Source: Evansella clarkii
GTDB lineage: Bacteria > Bacillota > Bacilli > Bacillales > Salisediminibacteriaceae
Reading direction: 5' to 3'
Length of the DNA stretch: 64,000 nt
Assembly (NCBI RefSeq): GCF_002019695.1
Contig: NZ_KV917376.1
Coordinates: 4,350,974-4,414,973 of the forward strand
The notes beneath the pieces were generated by a model that was given only the letters and a program-made list of their open reading frames with translations, did no database searches and was not told the DNA's origin. This document shows, piece after piece, positions 43,548-54,813 of this stretch (its first letter is position 1; every line of letters begins with the position of its first letter). A program made the translations under genes and the position numbers.

Positions 43548-43589
43548 AAAATTAGATTTGTAGTTTTGAATATTTTTGGAGGTGTTTAT

Positions 43590-45302
43590 ATGCAAGCATT
43601 GAAGCCAAAAGAAGGACATTACAACTTGCAAAACTACGAAAAAACACGGAATAATTTTCACTGGGACCAGGTAAAAGAAAAATTTACCTGGTCACGGACA
43701 GGTAAAGTAAACATGGCTTATGAAGCCATTGACCGGCATGCAGACGAAGGGAATGGAAACAAAACAGCACTTTTGTATTCTGATCAGGCAAGAGAGGAAA
43801 CTTATACATTTTCTCAATTAAAGGAACTGACAAATCAGGCTGCCCATATGTACAGGAGGCTGGGTGTCAATAAGGGAGACAGAGTTTTCATCTTCATGCC
43901 CCGCACCCCTGAACTTTATACCTCCCTGCTTGGCGCTATAAAAGCTGGCGCAGTAGTTGGCCCCCTTTTCGAAGCGTTCATGAAGGAAGCTGTAAGAAGC
44001 CGGCTGGAAGACAGCGGAGCGAAAGTACTGGTGACCACCCCTGATCTCCTTTCAAGAGTTCCCTATAAGGAACTTCCGGACCTGGAAACCATCATTATTG
44101 CAGGAGGTGCAGCTCCCCAGGAAAAAGGGTTCGTTTCTTTAAATGAGGAAATGCAGGCATCTCCAGCAGATGATACAGCTATCGAATGGCTTGACCTGGA
44201 AGATGGGATGATTCTTCACTACACGTCAGGTTCAACAGGCAAACCAAAAGGCGTTTATCATGTACACAATGCTATGATTCAGCAGTACCAGTCCGCCAAA
44301 TGGGTTATGGACTTACAGGAGGACGATGTTTACTGGTGTACCGCTGATCCAGGCTGGGTAACCGGTACTTCATACGGCATTTTCGGACCCTGGTTGAACG
44401 GTGTGACGAATGTAGTCAGAGGGGGGCGTTTCTCTCCTGACGACTGGTACAGCACGCTTGAAAAATACAAAGTTACCGTATGGTACAGTGCTCCTACTGC
44501 TTTTCGCATGCTTATGTCAGCAGGTGCTGATAAAGTTGAAAACTATAACCTGTCCTCGCTGAGGCACATACTCAGTGTCGGCGAACCGCTGAATCCGGAA
44601 GTTGTAAGATGGGGCTACGACACTTTCAAACTAAGAATTCATGATACGTGGTGGATGACTGAAACTGGAGCATTACTCATTTGTAACTACTTATCGGAGC
44701 CAATAAAGCCAGGATCAATGGGGAAACCTCTGCCTGGTATTGAAGCAGCGATTATAGATGATAAGGGAAATGAACTCCCTCCTTTCCAGATGGGCAATCT
44801 TGCTATTAAAGCCGGCTGGCCGTCCATGATGAGAAAAGTGTGGAACAACCAGCCGAAATATGACGAGTATTTTTCCATCCCTGGCTGGTATGTTTCAGGA
44901 GATACAGCATATAGAGACAAAGAAGGGTATTTCTGGTTCCAGGGACGAAATGATGATGTAATAAACACATCCGGCGAAAGGGTCGGCCCATTTGAAATCG
45001 AAAGCAAGCTTGTTGAACACCCGGCAGTTGCAGAAGCAGGAGTAATCGGAAAACCAGATGAAGTCAGGGGCGAGATTATCAAGGCGTTTATTTCTTTAAG
45101 GGAAGGTTACGAATATAGTGAGGAATTAAAAGAGGAGATACAAAAGTTTATTAAGACAGAACTTTCCGCTCATGCAGTACCGAAAGAAATTGAGTATAAA
45201 GAGAAATTGCCTAAAACAAGAAGCGGGAAGATCATGCGCCGTGTCCTGAAAGCGTGGGAACTGGGACAGCCTGCCGGCGATTTATCCACTATGGAAGACT
45301 GA
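43590..45302 (+). CDS. acsA: Acetate-CoA ligase (acetyl-CoA synthetase)
   Basis: The 570-aa ANL-superfamily enzyme activates acetate to acetyl-AMP and then acetyl-CoA. Motifs are YTSGSTGKPKGVYHVH, TADPGWVTGTSYGIFGPW, DTWWMTETG, GDTAYRDKEGYFWFQGRNDDVI and the C-terminal PKTRSGKIMRR lysine that is acetylated in related enzymes. Length matches the short Bacillus AcsA. ATG 43590 follows GGAGGTG; the in-frame ATG at 43566 lies before the ribosome binding site. The acuABC genes that are divergent in B. subtilis are not here. Confidence 0.95.
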   Translation: MQALKPKEGHYNLQNYEKTRNNFHWDQVKEKFTWSRTGKVNMAYEAIDRHADEGNGNKTALLYSDQAREETYTFSQLKELTNQAAHMYRRLGVNKGDRVFIFMPRTPELYTSLLGAIKAGAVVGPLFEAFMKEAVRSRLEDSGAKVLVTTPDLLSRVPYKELPDLETIIIAGGAAPQEKGFVSLNEEMQASPADDTAIEWLDLEDGMILHYTSGSTGKPKGVYHVHNAMIQQYQSAKWVMDLQEDDVYWCTADPGWVTGTSYGIFGPWLNGVTNVVRGGRFSPDDWYSTLEKYKVTVWYSAPTAFRMLMSAGADKVENYNLSSLRHILSVGEPLNPEVVRWGYDTFKLRIHDTWWMTETGALLICNYLSEPIKPGSMGKPLPGIEAAIIDDKGNELPPFQMGNLAIKAGWPSMMRKVWNNQPKYDEYFSIPGWYVSGDTAYRDKEGYFWFQGRNDDVINTSGERVGPFEIESKLVEHPAVAEAGVIGKPDEVRGEIIKAFISLREGYEYSEELKEEIQKFIKTELSAHAVPKEIEYKEKLPKTRSGKIMRRVLKAWELGQPAGDLSTMED

Positions 45303-45616: not shown

Positions 45617-45645
45617 TTGCCTCTTCTCTATTAAAATTATATGAT
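45617..45645 (+). promoter_or_regulatory. SigA promoter of the sigma-54 activator gene
   Basis: TTGCCT (45617-45622), 17-bp spacer, TATGAT (45640-45645). Expected start near 45652, immediately before the palindrome at 45657. Confidence 0.6.
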
Positions 45646-45656
45646 AAGATTGAATA

Positions 45657-45672
45657 TGCTGAAAATTCGGCA
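45657..45672. promoter_or_regulatory. Palindromic operator at the activator promoter
   Basis: TGCTGAAAATTCGGCA, an inverted repeat placed at about +5 to +20 of the predicted start. A near-identical site is at 47123-47140. This position fits autorepression by the encoded regulator. Confidence 0.5.
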
Positions 45673-45707
45673 CTAAGATGGATTTCCGGCATTAACCAGG
45701 AGGGTGT

Positions 45708-47120
45708 ATGTTTGCATCAGATAAAGATACTACAGAAATGTTAAAAGCAATTTTGGAAAGTATTGACGAAGGAATCCACGTAGTGGATAAGAACGGAATT
45801 ACCATTTATTATAATGAAACCGCCGCAGGGCATGATGGACTGTCTAGCAGAGAAGTGATCGGAAAACCTTTACTGGAGGTTTTTCCTTCCCTTTCCCACC
45901 AGACATCCACCTTACTTCAGGTAATCAAATCAGGGCTTCCGATTTATAACCAGCCCCAGTCATACAGGAATATCAAGGGCGAGCTTATAGATACAATTAA
46001 TACAACCATTCCCGTCATGGCAGATAATAATATAGCAGGTGCAGTAGAGATTGCTAAAGATTATTCGAGAATTAAAAAACTGTCTAACATGCTTATTGAA
46101 GTACAGACAGAAAATGACCGCAGGAAAGTAAAGGCCGAAAATGTAAGCGATAACCAGGCTTTATACCGTTTTACGGATATTCTCACAAGGAATGCTTCGA
46201 TGACGGAGGTACTTCGGAAAGCTGAAAAAATAGCGAGAACATCCTCCCCTGTATTTGTCTACGGTGAAACAGGTACAGGAAAAGAACTTCTCGTGCAAAG
46301 TATTCATCACAGCTCTCCAAGAAGCAACGGGCCGTTTATATCCCAAAACTGTGCTGCTATCCCCCCTTCTCTGCTGGAAAGCACATTATTTGGTACTGTA
46401 AAAGGGAGTTTTACAGGTTCAGAAGATAAGGAGGGTCTGTTTGAACTGGCCCATACAGGAACATTGTTTTTAGATGAGATTCATACCCTTTCTTATGAAC
46501 TGCAGGCTAAACTGCTCCGGGTGCTGGAAGACGGCGTCATAAGAAGAGTTGGCTCTAATAAAAGCATTAAAACAAATGTCAGGGTGCTTGCTGCGACAAA
46601 TGAGCCTCCTGAAAAACTGCTGGAGAAAAAAGTGCTGCGAAAAGATCTCTTCTACCGCTTAAAAGTCGCCTCTCTTTCGCTGCCTCCGCTAAAAGAAAGA
46701 ATGGATGACCTGGATGTTCTTGTACCGGCTTTTATCAGGTTTTACAATGCTCAATTCAGTAAATGTATAGAAGATGTTAACGAACCGGCCATGAGAGCGA
46801 TGAAATCATACAGCTGGCCAGGCAATGTCAGAGAGCTGAAGCACTGTGTAGAATCAGCCATGAACCTTGTTGAGGGAAAGACCATCAGGCTTGAAGATCT
46901 CCCTGCAGAGCTGCTGAAAAACCAAAGCAACAGCACTCAACAGATAAATTTCTTTGAGACTGAAGGCTCTGGATTAAAGGAAACCCTTGAAATATTAGAA
47001 AAAAAACTGATAACAGAGAAACTGAACAACGTGAACGGCAACGTTAAGAAAGCTGCAAAACTATTAAAAATTCCCAGGCAGACACTGCAATATAAAATAG
47101 CAAAATATAATATAGAGTAA
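45708..47120 (+). CDS. PAS-containing sigma-54-dependent transcriptional activator
   Basis: This 470-aa enhancer-binding protein has a PAS sensor (about 10-115), an AAA+ domain with Walker A GETGTGKE (186-193) and LFLDEIHTL, and a C-terminal Fis-type helix-turn-helix (VKKAAKLLKIPRQTLQYKI). The sigma-54 contact loop, normally GAFTGA, reads GSFTGS (233-238). It lies directly upstream of kamA-yokU, whose promoter is of -24/-12 type, so it most likely activates those genes. AGGAGG is close (about 5 nt) to the ATG. The ligand of the PAS domain is unknown. Confidence 0.9.
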   Translation: MFASDKDTTEMLKAILESIDEGIHVVDKNGITIYYNETAAGHDGLSSREVIGKPLLEVFPSLSHQTSTLLQVIKSGLPIYNQPQSYRNIKGELIDTINTTIPVMADNNIAGAVEIAKDYSRIKKLSNMLIEVQTENDRRKVKAENVSDNQALYRFTDILTRNASMTEVLRKAEKIARTSSPVFVYGETGTGKELLVQSIHHSSPRSNGPFISQNCAAIPPSLLESTLFGTVKGSFTGSEDKEGLFELAHTGTLFLDEIHTLSYELQAKLLRVLEDGVIRRVGSNKSIKTNVRVLAATNEPPEKLLEKKVLRKDLFYRLKVASLSLPPLKERMDDLDVLVPAFIRFYNAQFSKCIEDVNEPAMRAMKSYSWPGNVRELKHCVESAMNLVEGKTIRLEDLPAELLKNQSNSTQQINFFETEGSGLKETLEILEKKLITEKLNNVNGNVKKAAKLLKIPRQTLQYKIAKYNIE

Positions 47121-47122
47121 AA

Positions 47123-47140
47123 GTGCTGATTTTTCGGCAC
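47123..47140. promoter_or_regulatory. Palindrome: candidate activator site (UAS) for kamA, also a terminator stem
   Basis: GTGCTGATTTTTCGGCAC repeats the 45657 palindrome. Its centre lies about 75 bp before the -24 element, normal for a sigma-54 enhancer site. As RNA it extends to AAAGTGC/GCACTTT followed by CTTT, so it could also end the activator transcript. Confidence 0.55.
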
Positions 47141-47202
47141 TTTCTTTATTATTAACGTCTTCCATTTTTTATAAAACCCTCATGTATCAGCATTTCTCCT
47201 CT

Positions 47203-47219
47203 TTGGCATAAAACTTGCA
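47203..47219 (+). promoter_or_regulatory. Sigma-54 (-24/-12) promoter of kamA-yokU
   Basis: TTGGCAT, 5 bp, TTGCA matches the TGGCAC-N5-TTGCW consensus with the invariant GG and GC at the right distance. Expected start near 47229, 35 bp before the kamA ATG. Confidence 0.75.
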
Positions 47220-47263
47220 TTACTAAGTATGCGAGAAACCGTAAAACGAGGAGGAAATTAGAA

Positions 47264-48688
47264 ATGAAGATGGATTTGTACAAACCTGAACGCCACTGGA
47301 AGGAGATAGAATTGTGGGAGGATGTTACGGAGGAGCAATGGAACGACTGGATGTGGCAGCTTACTAATACGATCAGGACACTGGACGACCTGAAAAAAGT
47401 AATTAATTTAACCCCTGAAGAGGAAGAAGGAGTACGGATTTCCACAAAAACCATTCCTTTAAATATTACACCATACTATGCATCCCTGATGAATCCTGAC
47501 GACCCGCGCTGTCCGGTCAGAATGCAGTCTGTCCCTATATCACAGGAGATACAGAAAACAAAGTATGACCTTGAGGACCCTTTGTTTGAAGATGAAGATT
47601 CTCCAGTGCCAGGCTTAACTCACCGTTATCCGGACCGAGTCTTATTCCTGGTAACAAATCAATGTTCCATGTACTGCCGTTACTGTACGAGACGCCGTTT
47701 TTCAGGGCAGATCGGCATGGGTGTTCCGAAAAAACAACTGGACGGAGCAATTCAGTATATTGCCAGCAATCCTGAAATCAGGGACGTACTCATCTCTGGC
47801 GGTGATGGACTGTTAATAAATGACCAGATTCTTGAATATGTACTGAAAAACCTTCGGGAAATAGACCATGTGGAGATCATCCGGATTGGCACGAGAGCCC
47901 CTGTCGTGTTCCCACAGCGTATTACAGAAAACCTCTGCAATATATTGAAAAAGTATCACCCGATCTGGCTGAATACACACTTTAACACTTCCATTGAAAT
48001 AACCGAAGAGTCAAAAAAAGCGTGTGAGATGCTCGCTAATGCAGGAGTTCCGCTTGGAAACCAGGCTGTTATACTCGCCGGTATAAATGATAGTGTTGAA
48101 ATTATGAAAAAATTAATGCATGACCTCGTAAAAATCCGGGTCCGGCCTTATTATATTTATCAGTGCGATTTATCTGAAGGAATCGGCCATTTCCGGGCTC
48201 CTGTATCGAAAGGGCTGGAGATCATTGAAGGATTAAGAGGACACACTTCTGGCTACGCCGTGCCCGCTTTCGTAGTCGATGCACCAGGTGGCGGCGGAAA
48301 AATTACACTTCAGCCAAATTACCTGATCTCCCAGAGCCCGGATAAAGTTGTTCTCCGGAACTTTGAAGGAGTGATTACTTCTTATCCGGAACCTCAGAAC
48401 TACGTACCGGGAAGAGCAAATGATTATTTTTATTCTTACTATGAAAAGAAAGAACAAAAACGTGTTGGTGTATCTGCCCTGATGAATGATGAGAAATTCA
48501 ACCTGGTTCCGGAAGGTTTGAACCGCCTTGACAGACGAAAACAGTATGAAGCAAGCGAAAACCATCAGACGCTTAAGCAGCTGCGGGAAAAACGGGATCA
48601 AATGAAAGAAAGAAAATGGAAAAAGGAACAGGAAAGGCTTAAAGAAAAGAATACGACAGAAACACCGGAAACGCCGGAACAGGTATAG
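47264..48688 (+). CDS. kamA: Lysine 2,3-aminomutase
   Basis: This 474-aa radical-SAM, PLP-dependent enzyme converts L-lysine to L-beta-lysine. The cluster-binding CxxxCxxC is C134, C138, C141 (CSMYCRYC). The PLP lysine motif PGGGGKI lies near residue 345, and the DVLISGGDGL loop is present. Highly charged C-terminal tail (KERKWKKEQERLKEK) as in Bacillus YodO. AGGAGG precedes the ATG. It is controlled by the sigma-54 promoter at 47203. With AblB, encoded on the opposite strand, it could make N-acetyl-beta-lysine, a known osmolyte, or feed lysine breakdown. Confidence 0.95.
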   Translation: MKMDLYKPERHWKEIELWEDVTEEQWNDWMWQLTNTIRTLDDLKKVINLTPEEEEGVRISTKTIPLNITPYYASLMNPDDPRCPVRMQSVPISQEIQKTKYDLEDPLFEDEDSPVPGLTHRYPDRVLFLVTNQCSMYCRYCTRRRFSGQIGMGVPKKQLDGAIQYIASNPEIRDVLISGGDGLLINDQILEYVLKNLREIDHVEIIRIGTRAPVVFPQRITENLCNILKKYHPIWLNTHFNTSIEITEESKKACEMLANAGVPLGNQAVILAGINDSVEIMKKLMHDLVKIRVRPYYIYQCDLSEGIGHFRAPVSKGLEIIEGLRGHTSGYAVPAFVVDAPGGGGKITLQPNYLISQSPDKVVLRNFEGVITSYPEPQNYVPGRANDYFYSYYEKKEQKRVGVSALMNDEKFNLVPEGLNRLDRRKQYEASENHQTLKQLREKRDQMKERKWKKEQERLKEKNTTETPETPEQV

Positions 48689-48702
48689 GACGGAGGATGA
48701 TT

Positions 48703-48975
48703 ATGGTTTGTAAATGGTGCGAGTCGGAAGAAGCGATTGTTTCGCCCGAATCCGCTTACTGGGAGCTTCCTGACGGGACACGGGCAGTTGAGATTAAAAA
48801 GGTGCCTTCAGTTAAATGCCCGTCATGCAGCATGATATATGTAGAAGAAGATCTAATCGGAGAGATTGAGGAGCAGATGATGCTGATCAATACGAGAAAT
48901 CTTCCTAAAGAATTTACTTTTGAAGATTTGATGGAACAGCCAAGGTTGCTGAAGAAAAATTATTTTAATCTGTGA
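48703..48975 (+). CDS. yokU: YokU family zinc-motif protein
   Basis: This 90-aa protein is adjacent to kamA in many Bacillus genomes. It begins MVCKWCESEEA and has a second pair in VKCPSCSMIYV, so a zinc knuckle of two CxxC pairs is likely. The C-terminal part resembles YgiT-type antitoxin zinc heads only in these pairs. ATG 48703 is preferred over 48697 because the earlier ATG overlaps GGAGG. Second gene of the kamA operon. Function unknown. Confidence 0.8.
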   Translation: MVCKWCESEEAIVSPESAYWELPDGTRAVEIKKVPSVKCPSCSMIYVEEDLIGEIEEQMMLINTRNLPKEFTFEDLMEQPRLLKKNYFNL

Positions 48976-49841: not shown

Positions 49842-49924
49842 AAATAAACCACTTTCTTTTCTGAATAATTCTATATGAGTATCAATATTTCTTAGAATTA
49901 TCTTTATTACTTTAGATAAGGTGT

Positions 49925-50130
49925 GTTGATGAGCTCTACACAAACTCGCTTTCCTCGGGCAACGCCTCAGCCCCCTCGGATACCCCTCCCTGCGGGGTCT
50001 TCGGCCGTTGCTTTTCCCGACCGGAAAGAGCATCGCTCCTCCGCAAATGCTTCGATTTGTCTCGACGGATATTCTGCGGAGCTAATCTGGAAGAGGAAGA
50101 GACAGTCTCCTTTGCTCCGATCTCATCAAC
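49925..50130 (-). repeat. MITE-like element with GTTGATGAG terminal repeats
   Basis: A 206-bp element is bounded by GTTGATGAG and CTCATCAAC. Its core, read on the minus strand (GAGACTGTCTCTTCC, TAGCTCCGCAGAATATCCGTC, GCATTTGCGG), matches the core of the 20.6-kb and 34.4-kb elements, while the remaining part is GC-richer and different. It lies between yodR and ablB. Confidence 0.7.
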
Positions 50131-50234
50131 ATCTCTATTATAAATGAATTTTATAGTCATTCTGAGCTAATGACACACTTATTTAATTTCTATTATACAT
50201 GTACAGCTCGTCTATTTGGGTCTTTAGACTCCAT

Positions 50235-53157: not shown

Positions 53158-54813
53158 ATGCTGACTATCTACGAAGCAATGAACCTTCCTGCGTTAAAGG
53201 GGACAAAATTGATCGCTGGAAAAAAAGGAAGGGATAATCCGATTAACTGGGTAACAACCATTGAGATTATTGAAGATATTTCACGTTTTAACGAAGGGGA
53301 ATTTATCGTCACTACTGGCTACGGACTCATTGATAATCCAGTGTATATTGACAGATTAACCGAGCTTATTAAGTCAGGCAGGCTGTCTGGACTCGCTTTT
53401 CATACAGGATTTTATCTCCAATCGATTCCCGAGGCTCTGACAGATGCAGCTGATGAACATCATCTTCCTTTAATAGAAATTCCTAAGTCCATCAATTTTT
53501 CTACAATTACTAAAACTATTGTCGAAGAAATTGGCAACGAACAAATGCGTCTGCTTCAGGATTCCCTTAAAATACATAAAGAAATGACTAAGCTGGCATT
53601 GAACAATAAAGGTCTGGATGAAGTGCTTAAAAGAATAAGCAATCTTACACATTCTACATTTCTCGTATTTAATGATATTGGAGAGCTTCAGGCTGTGGAA
53701 AATATACATCAGGACTTTGTTTCAGTAACCGAAGAATACGTTACAGTTTCAGAAGAAAAGCATTCTGCCGCTTCACTCTTTGAAATGATTAATAACCACA
53801 CGCCGGGAGAACCAATTAAGATCGCAAACTTTTATTGTTTCAGCACCCCCGTATCTGCCGAGTCCTTTACTTATGGATACCTTGTTGCTCTGCAGCATAA
53901 ACCCTTCTGGTCTGAGATGGACAGTATTATTATGGATCACGTATCCACACTGGTGGGAATCGAATTAGTAAAACAATATGCTGTGGAAGAAACGAGGGTG
54001 CGGCTCAAAGGGGAACTGGCGGAAGAAATTCTGCTTAAAGATAAATTTAATAAGGAGGCAGCGCTCAAACGGGGGACAAAATTAGGCTACGACCTTTCAA
54101 AACCCCACGCTGTTTTATATTTAAGAATTCATGTTAAAGAAGATGAGCGGTATAGCATTAATGAAGATTTAAGCAGCCATCTTCATTATGTAGCTGCCCA
54201 GACTCTCCAGCATTCAGGAAGGCAATATATTATATTGCCGAAAGCGGAAGAACTGTATGCCCTGGTCCAGGTCGATTTTTATGACAAAATCAATGAAAAA
54301 GATGGATTGAAAAACATATCTGCAAAAATACAGGACAGATGGACAGTTAATTTCAAACAGCAGTTAACAATTGGTATTGGAAACGGCTATCGCCAGCTGA
54401 ACGAAGTATCCCAAAGTGCAAAAGAGGCTGAATATGCAGTCCGGTACGCCCCATTGTTCTTAAACGGACCTTCCGTTGTCCATTTTGATGAGCTTGGATT
54501 TTATCAGATGCTTATCAGGATGCAGGAAGCGGGTATTTCACTTAAAGTGTTTTACGAAACTCATTTAGGGAACCTGCTCGTAAATAAACAGCACAGAACG
54601 GATTTAATACTTACGCTGGAAGTTTATCTTGCCCATAACTGCAATATTCAGCAAGCTGCTTCCAGCCTTTTTATACACAGACATACGTTAAAGTACCGGC
54701 TGTCTCAAATTGAGAAGTATACAGGGCTCAGTCTGCAGTCACCTGATGACCGATTTAATCTTCATCTCGCGATACTTGCTTATAAATTCGCCGGGATGCA
54801 GTCTTCAGACTAA
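53158..54813 (+). CDS. PucR family transcriptional regulator
   Basis: The 551-aa regulator has an N-terminal PucR ligand/purine-catabolism domain (LTIYEAMNLPALKGTKLIAG through VTTGYGLIDNP), a central GAF/GGDEF-like region and a C-terminal PucR helix-turn-helix (NIQQAASSLFIHRHTLKYRLSQIEKYTGL). Divergent from yodT-S-R, so it most likely controls that operon, possibly sensing a lysine-pathway metabolite. Ribosome binding site AGAGGTG. Alternative: a regulator of an unlinked amino-acid or purine pathway. Confidence 0.88.
   Translation: MLTIYEAMNLPALKGTKLIAGKKGRDNPINWVTTIEIIEDISRFNEGEFIVTTGYGLIDNPVYIDRLTELIKSGRLSGLAFHTGFYLQSIPEALTDAADEHHLPLIEIPKSINFSTITKTIVEEIGNEQMRLLQDSLKIHKEMTKLALNNKGLDEVLKRISNLTHSTFLVFNDIGELQAVENIHQDFVSVTEEYVTVSEEKHSAASLFEMINNHTPGEPIKIANFYCFSTPVSAESFTYGYLVALQHKPFWSEMDSIIMDHVSTLVGIELVKQYAVEETRVRLKGELAEEILLKDKFNKEAALKRGTKLGYDLSKPHAVLYLRIHVKEDERYSINEDLSSHLHYVAAQTLQHSGRQYIILPKAEELYALVQVDFYDKINEKDGLKNISAKIQDRWTVNFKQQLTIGIGNGYRQLNEVSQSAKEAEYAVRYAPLFLNGPSVVHFDELGFYQMLIRMQEAGISLKVFYETHLGNLLVNKQHRTDLILTLEVYLAHNCNIQQAASSLFIHRHTLKYRLSQIEKYTGLSLQSPDDRFNLHLAILAYKFAGMQSSD

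Follow-up and report, generated by a model that had tools for sequence, protein, structure and literature searches.

A palindrome shared by kamR and kamA in Evansella clarkii is a candidate KamR operator with one copy in a terminator-like hairpin

A shared palindrome beside kamR and kamA

In a 64,000-nucleotide stretch of the Evansella clarkii genome (contig NZ_KV917376.1, positions 4,350,974 to 4,414,973; hereafter the window, whose numbering is used throughout), two codirectional forward-strand genes share a palindrome that is most likely, judging from its distribution, the binding site of the regulator encoded by the first. This gene, kamR (45708..47120), specifies a 470-amino-acid PAS–AAA+–HTH_8 protein with the hallmarks of a sigma-54 activator (PF00158, AAA+ sigma-54 interaction, 211 bits; PF02954, Fis-type helix-turn-helix, 45.9 bits), and kamA (ablA; 47264..48688) encodes lysine 2,3-aminomutase (TIGR03820, 641 bits against a cut-off of 525). 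Direct reading of the sequence finds TGCTGA-N4-TCGGCA twice: at site 1, upstream of kamR (TGCTGAAAATTCGGCA, 45657..45672, forward strand, 26.2 bits), and at site 3, between the two genes (TGCTGATTTTTCGGCA, 47124..47139, forward strand, 20.1 bits). A weaker tandem copy with a weak left half, site 2 (AGATGGATTTCCGGCA, 45676..45691, forward strand, 9.8 bits), follows site 1 at a spacing of 19 bp. All three are predicted upstream activating sequences (UAS), and sites 1 and 2 are in addition predicted operators. Scores come from a matrix trained only on the first sites of 17 loci of the family, with a threshold of 9.2 bits; site 1 belongs to the training set and site 3 does not. Because the family upstream sites are the training set, only the more distant loci of the order and the end-of-gene sites test the matrix.

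A preliminary description of this DNA had noticed the two full palindromes, and both are real, but it wrote the motif as TGCTGA-N4-CGGCA, one base short, a form that matches six other places in the genome and neither site in the window; it also overlooked the weaker tandem copy and the hairpin at site 3. Matches to both of the promoters that it proposed are present. Upstream of kamR, the SigA-type promoter TTGCCT-17-TATGAT (45617..45645, forward strand) agrees with the consensus at 9 of 12 positions, and site 1 lies just after it, beginning about 5 nt downstream of the expected transcription start; SigA-type matches of this quality are no commoner than in shuffles. Upstream of kamA, TTGGCATAAAACTTGCA (47203..47219, forward strand) is a perfect match to a -24/-12 sigma-54 promoter, and its GG lies 73 bp from the centre of site 3, where the preliminary description had given about 75 bp. 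Exact matches to TTGGCAYNNNNNTTGCW number 16 in the genome, the kamA promoter among them, against 2 for a reversed-pattern control, and the same 5.48 Mb genome encodes sigma-54 (PF04552, 223.8 bits).

Site 3 is also the core of a hairpin that stands directly 3′ of the kamR stop codon (47120..47153, forward strand; stem 47120-47143, tail CTTTATTATT). The 10-bp stem with 4 GC pairs and a 4-nt loop has a folding energy of −15.8 kcal/mol (z −4.97), and a GC-containing stem-loop followed by a run of T has the features of an intrinsic terminator, making this terminator-like element a predicted terminator of kamR.

Conservation of the sites in the family and the order

A search of 35 genomes of the family, including that of E. 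clarkii, yields 18 close KamR orthologues with 53-100% identity, the next matches reaching at most 45%. The clade label KamR derives from the kamA neighbourhood and not from comparison with the Bacillus thuringiensis KamR sequence; the PrdR model NF041552 (NCBIfam) gives the window protein 405 bits, below its cut-off of 795. The family set comprises 18, 17 or 16 loci depending on the analysis, as L023 is shortened and L024 is arranged differently, and it includes two close relatives (L008 and L019) of other members (L007 and L018). Of the 18 loci, 17 have a palindrome whose centre lies 43-60 nt before the match begins, and 16 of these 17 have a second copy 19-21 bp beyond the first; in L024, the exception, an ablB-like reading frame lies by eye between kamR and kamA. 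Of 16 family loci, 14 have a site of at least 9.2 bits near kamA, and the other two fall below this score (L011 at 5.7 and L013 at 8.5 bits). At L023 the kamR match ends at residue 346 and is followed by what by eye is a transposase-like frame, with the upstream tandem site kept.

Across the order, 148 of 397 genomes contain a KamR match at E <= 1e-125, from which we selected 54 loci (L137-L190), roughly one for each genus, with a second member added for some; kamR coordinates in these loci are the ends of tblastn matches, so distances can err by a few bases. In 37 of the 54 loci, the 200 bp preceding kamR contain a site of at least 9.2 bits. Conservation beside orthologous activators, which the preliminary description had set as its test, is thus found in 17/18 family and 37/54 order loci. 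Among the 48 order loci with kamA downstream, 31 have such a site in the last 300 bp before kamA and 45 have one in either location, a score that only 0.5-0.6% of dinucleotide shuffles reach. A sigma-54 promoter (at least 9/12) is found in 67 of the 70 loci scored (54 order and 16 family), and in 48 of these 67 a site at or above threshold lies 50-203 bp from it.

The tandem arrangement is equally constant. With no spacing imposed, the strongest upstream site has its best partner within 60 bp at a distance of 20, 21 or 22 bp in 2, 17 and 17 loci, or 36 of 37. This spacing bears on whether the palindromes act as RNA, for example as leader hairpins or a riboswitch, and not as protein-binding DNA. 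Site 1 is palindromic and, given the predicted promoter, transcribed, but site 2 in the window has a weak left half, the kamR upstream region folds not clearly better than shuffles (z −0.85), no Rfam family matches in the 38-58 kb part of the window, and the copies are held near two turns of DNA, leaving an RNA role extremely improbable. On the same Rfam result we rejected RNA regulation of kamA of the type reported for Dehalobacter, in which Na+ and cyclic di-AMP riboswitches are described (PMC9337991).

Sites upstream of kamR and sites near kamA can each occur alone. Upstream-only loci make up 14 of the 48; seven of these have a near-kamA site of 7.0-8.3 bits and seven have none, so in the latter KamR would act from about 1.5 kb. 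An upstream site at or above threshold is missing in another 14, of which 11 have a near-kamA site; all but one of these 11 have at least two there. All six loci ordered kamR–ablB–kamA are among these 11. Where the upstream site is missing the motif thus seems to go with the kamA promoter, the behaviour expected of an enhancer.

The end-of-gene site as a probable enhancer and terminator

A search for terminator-like hairpins in the same 70 loci, made without use of the motif, places one directly after kamR in 38 loci, and 29 of these 38 carry the motif at or above 9.2 bits; five of the others score 7.8-8.5 bits and four (L141, L163, L188 and L189) are without it. Among the 249 hairpins found elsewhere, 14 reach the threshold; their positions show each of them to be one of the kamR-flanking sites, taken from the opposite strand, lying upstream of kamR or, in L022, further downstream. 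The stems have also been kept paired beyond the motif. For this comparison, rows were chosen by motif score (end-of-gene sites of at least 7.5 bits, 45 of 67 loci; upstream sites of at least 9.2 bits, 50 of 67), so constancy of the core is partly a matter of choice, and pairing of the flanks is not. Flank positions 1-4 of the 45 end-of-gene sites are paired in 0.76-0.84 of rows, by pairs of varying type (AT, TA, GC, CG and GU-type), against 0.36-0.50 for the flanks of the 50 upstream sites. Such motif overlap together with covarying flanks is expected where a sequence has been selected as a protein site and also as an RNA hairpin, and from these comparisons the end-of-gene site looks to be selected both as an enhancer and as a terminator.

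We consider it unlikely that this site is a terminator only, resembling the upstream palindrome through shared ancestry or chance. Site 3 does fold as a hairpin with a T-rich tail, its flanks covary, four of the 38 hairpins after kamR manage without the motif, and an unrelated terminator-like hairpin in the genome matches it. Against this reading, the motif is carried by 29 of 38 hairpins after kamR and by 0 of 235 others once kamR-flanking sites are set aside; in L020 the site lies about 190 nt beyond kamR and is not called as a terminator hairpin; and of the 11 loci described above that lack the upstream site, 10 have at least two sites adjoining kamA.

A model for KamR control of kamA

We propose, as very probably correct, that KamR binds the palindromes and loops to sigma-54 polymerase to activate kamA, with sites 1 and 2 as a far tandem operator and site 3 as both a near enhancer and the stem of a terminator. 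The Fis-type helix-turn-helix of a KamR dimer would recognise the 16-bp inverted repeat TGCYRR-N4-YYRGCA; once bound, the dimer would contact sigma-54 RNA polymerase at TTGGCATAAAACTTGCA by looping and open the kamA promoter. A signal, probably lysine or a lysine product, would act on the PAS domain and lead to the making of beta-lysine. The tandem sites, about two helix turns apart, would reach the kamA promoter across kamR, over some 1.5 kb, and because in this family they sit just after a SigA-like promoter, KamR probably also limits its own synthesis there; site 3, at its 73-bp distance, would be the near enhancer site while forming the stem of the kamR terminator.

On another reading, the tandem pair lacks this second function: it would be a distant enhancer for kamA only, and kamR would not be under KamR control. 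In many order loci ablB and kamR have the pair between them with no obvious promoter seen by eye, 11 of 48 loci dispense with the upstream site while having one near kamA, and the UAS of SoxR acts from 1.7 kb across its own gene (PMC4941409). Two points stand against this. In 16 of 17 family loci the best SigA-like match stops 7-17 nt short of the first site, a placement expected of a repressor, and SoxR, the closest precedent, is autorepressing (PMC4941409). The promoter argument has a weakness, as only 10 of the 17 SigA-like matches (59%) score at least 9, modestly above the 16% of shuffles that do so. We regard a purely distant enhancer as possible, though less likely than not. Because the pair is often without an obvious promoter and 11 of 48 loci have near-kamA sites only, the enhancer role seems to be the general one, with autorepression added locally at most. 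KamR activation of the kamA promoter is, on this comparative evidence, well supported, and autorepression of kamR is plausible in this family only. The preliminary description had read site placement as autorepression at kamR and activation at kamA; comparison upholds the second half and restricts the first to the family, and overall its observation was real and its functional reading largely right.

Several observations weigh against this model. The sigma-54 contact loop of KamR reads GSFTGS and not GAFTGA; over all rows of the tree the counts are GSYTGA 36, GSFTGA 28, GSFTGS 9 and GAFTGA 9, all nine GAFTGA loops belong to paralogues and none to KamR-type rows, and the F/Y-T-G core is preserved. 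Three of the 48 order loci, L160 (8.0 bits), L164 (6.6) and L165 (8.8), are below threshold in both places, and in ten (L146, L156, L160, L163, L164, L165, L168, L177, L187 and L188) the near-kamA score is under 1 bit, leaving a sole candidate enhancer some 1.5 kb distant. Counts are of loci and not of events: the six kamR–ablB–kamA loci and L138, 7 of the 11 near-kamA-only loci, fall in one clade of ten rows (support 100/98), so this arrangement may be a single event, while the sister rows L147 and L186, together with L170 and L174, elsewhere in the tree, suggest further ones. The published B. thuringiensis kamA promoter sequence matches 0 of 36 and 0 of 397 genomes, so the species in which KamR was described is not part of the comparison. 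In the more distant activator loci L042-L046, all five of which were scanned, the motif is not seen beside the activator. Finally, the match at C1:2671944 (L135), which scores 19.7 bits, is an unrelated hairpin between open reading frames (ORFs), 3′ of an opposite-strand ORF and not close to any of the 16 sigma-54 promoter matches; terminators can therefore match the motif by chance.

In the 5.48 Mb genome as a whole, TGCTGA-N4-TCGGCA occurs exactly three times, the third copy (C1:4161094) lying within an ORF. Allowing one mismatch gives 33 matches, where a symmetric match counts on each strand, and a reversed-pattern control gives 10. Contig 2 has two matches of 14.6 bits each, placed relative to ORFs only. 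We considered a larger KamR regulon and rejected it, as the best scores around the 16 exact -24/-12 matches point to kamA: within 3-kb stretches at these promoters the top motif scores are 20.1 bits (kamA), 16.8 (L125) and 14.2 (L131), the latter two about 1.5 kb and about 1 kb from the promoter.

KamR-type sites at other likely lysine pathways

The motif is absent from the 260 bp upstream of all 12 paralogous activators, which are 42-44% identical to the window KamR and read [SKQ]RQSLQYR in the helix against PRQTLQYK, and it occurs in the 600 bp downstream of 1 of the 12. A regulator other than KamR could in principle bind the palindromes, and this we hold to be very unlikely: the motif is not found upstream of the paralogues and accompanies KamR-clade activators even when the target genes differ. 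L149, L179 and L183 encode KamR-clade activators with no kamA in the fetched stretch and retain the upstream pair, the end-of-gene site and the sigma-54 promoter. In L149 and L179, the two whose neighbours were examined, the next genes look to encode an Orn/Lys/Arg-type decarboxylase and an amino acid permease. The best model for the decarboxylases is lysine decarboxylase, at 124 and 133 bits, far under the cut-off of 968; the L149 permease passes PRK10836 (747 bits against 735) and is one that we take to be LysP-type, and the L179 permease was judged by eye.

Beyond these, a wider search gave 80 loci among the matches listed, mostly with distant activators, of which L038-L046 were scanned for the motif. 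In L038, L039 and L041 a site of at least 9.2 bits lies a short way in front of the activator gene, and in L040 such a site lies in the operon. L040, from a metagenome-assembled genome of Pelosinus fermentans, encodes a distant KamR relative outside the KamR clade in a midpoint-rooted tree, beside the lysine fermentation genes KDD, lysine 5,6-aminomutase and KCE, all above cut-offs (L040:2500-11383). Its motif copies stand before two sigma-54-like promoters: TTGGCATGGTTATTGCA, which is followed by a permease cut by the end of the stretch (best model PRK10836), and TTGGAACGTAATTTGCA, ahead of the KDD gene. At L039 (Ammoniphilus resinae), a KamR-clade activator has the palindrome upstream and no kamA match occurs in the 11.4-kb stretch; downstream lie a gene for a CCG-domain (Fe-S oxidoreductase-type) protein and then a thiolase gene.

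Because L149, L179 and L040 link the operator to lysine catabolism, lysine or its product is the likely signal. In its widest form, our reading is of a lysine-responsive family whose members across Bacillota share one tandem operator code (TGCYRR-N4-YYRGCA, with copies about 21 bp apart). Rewiring would have brought three or more lysine routes under its control: that of lysine 2,3-aminomutase; in L149 and L179, that of an Orn/Lys/Arg-type decarboxylase and a LysP-type permease; and in L040, the genes of lysine fermentation together with a LysP-type permease. The 16-bp end-of-gene element would at the same time be selected as enhancer and RNA terminator, so that occupancy and termination could influence each other. 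We put the chances of this wider proposal at about even.

Neighbouring genes

kamR sits between kamA and an acyl-CoA synthetase gene (43566-45302; acetate–CoA ligase model above cut-off). Immediately 3′ of kamA, yokU (48697..48975, forward strand; TIGR03829 above cut-off) encodes a small zinc-finger protein and is probably on one transcript with kamA. Beyond them, the opposite strand carries ablB, two CoA-transferase subunit genes and an aminotransferase gene, from which a gene for a PucR-type regulator (53158-54813) diverges; its product is possibly the regulator of this aminotransferase/CoA-transferase/ablB group. An interspersed repeat lies immediately 5′ of ablB (49918-50145) and has 50 matches in this genome, some of them pieces of a single copy, with 40 of 128 first-look candidates scored.

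Relation to known systems

The preliminary description supposed that the exact wiring might be undescribed, which for the wiring is wrong. In B. thuringiensis HD73, kamA expression is reported to depend on KamR and sigma-54, and kamA with the six genes upstream forms two operons (PMC4428206); sigma-54/KamR wiring of kamA is therefore not new. As in E. clarkii, a PAS-type sigma-54 activator gene adjoins kamA codirectionally, but HD73 kamR is in an operon with upstream genes, whereas kamR here follows its own SigA-like promoter. A 2025 survey likewise places lysine 2,3-aminomutase among the predominantly sigma-54-regulated genes in Bacilli (PMC12316311). The closest architectural parallel is the sox locus of B. 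thuringiensis, in which a single UAS in front of soxR switches on a sigma-54 promoter that lies past the activator gene at a distance of at least 1.7 kb, and SoxR is autorepressing (PMC4941409). The SoxR site is an 11-bp inverted repeat with a 7-bp spacer, unlike the KamR palindrome, and the accessible portion of that report mentions no terminator-embedded site of the kind found here. RocR of B. subtilis, with its rocG enhancer, is also a long-range sigma-54 activator of amino acid catabolism (cited via PMC4941409), with targets that differ from those of KamR. PrdR and other Clostridiales activators resemble KamR in being Fis-type; many of them have several UAS, which usually lie 100-250 bp from the sigma-54 promoter, but fifteen Clostridiales groups including PrdR use TGT-N10-12-ACA, unlike the KamR motif, and the accessible main text of this survey does not mention kamA or aminomutase (PMC6615313). 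In the literature searched we found no statement of a KamR binding site, though Zhang et al. 2014, which PMC4428206 cites, could contain one. The KamR site and its double role as an end-of-gene hairpin may thus be undescribed.

What is worth following is the operator code, the tandem spacing, the position of a site in the activator terminator and the apparent reuse for other lysine pathways. A concrete candidate KamR site would open the way to the regulon and the signal. A tandem operator beyond the activator gene and a site inside the activator terminator, kept over many genera, make this architecture a clean case for long-range sigma-54 activation and for elements under dual selection.

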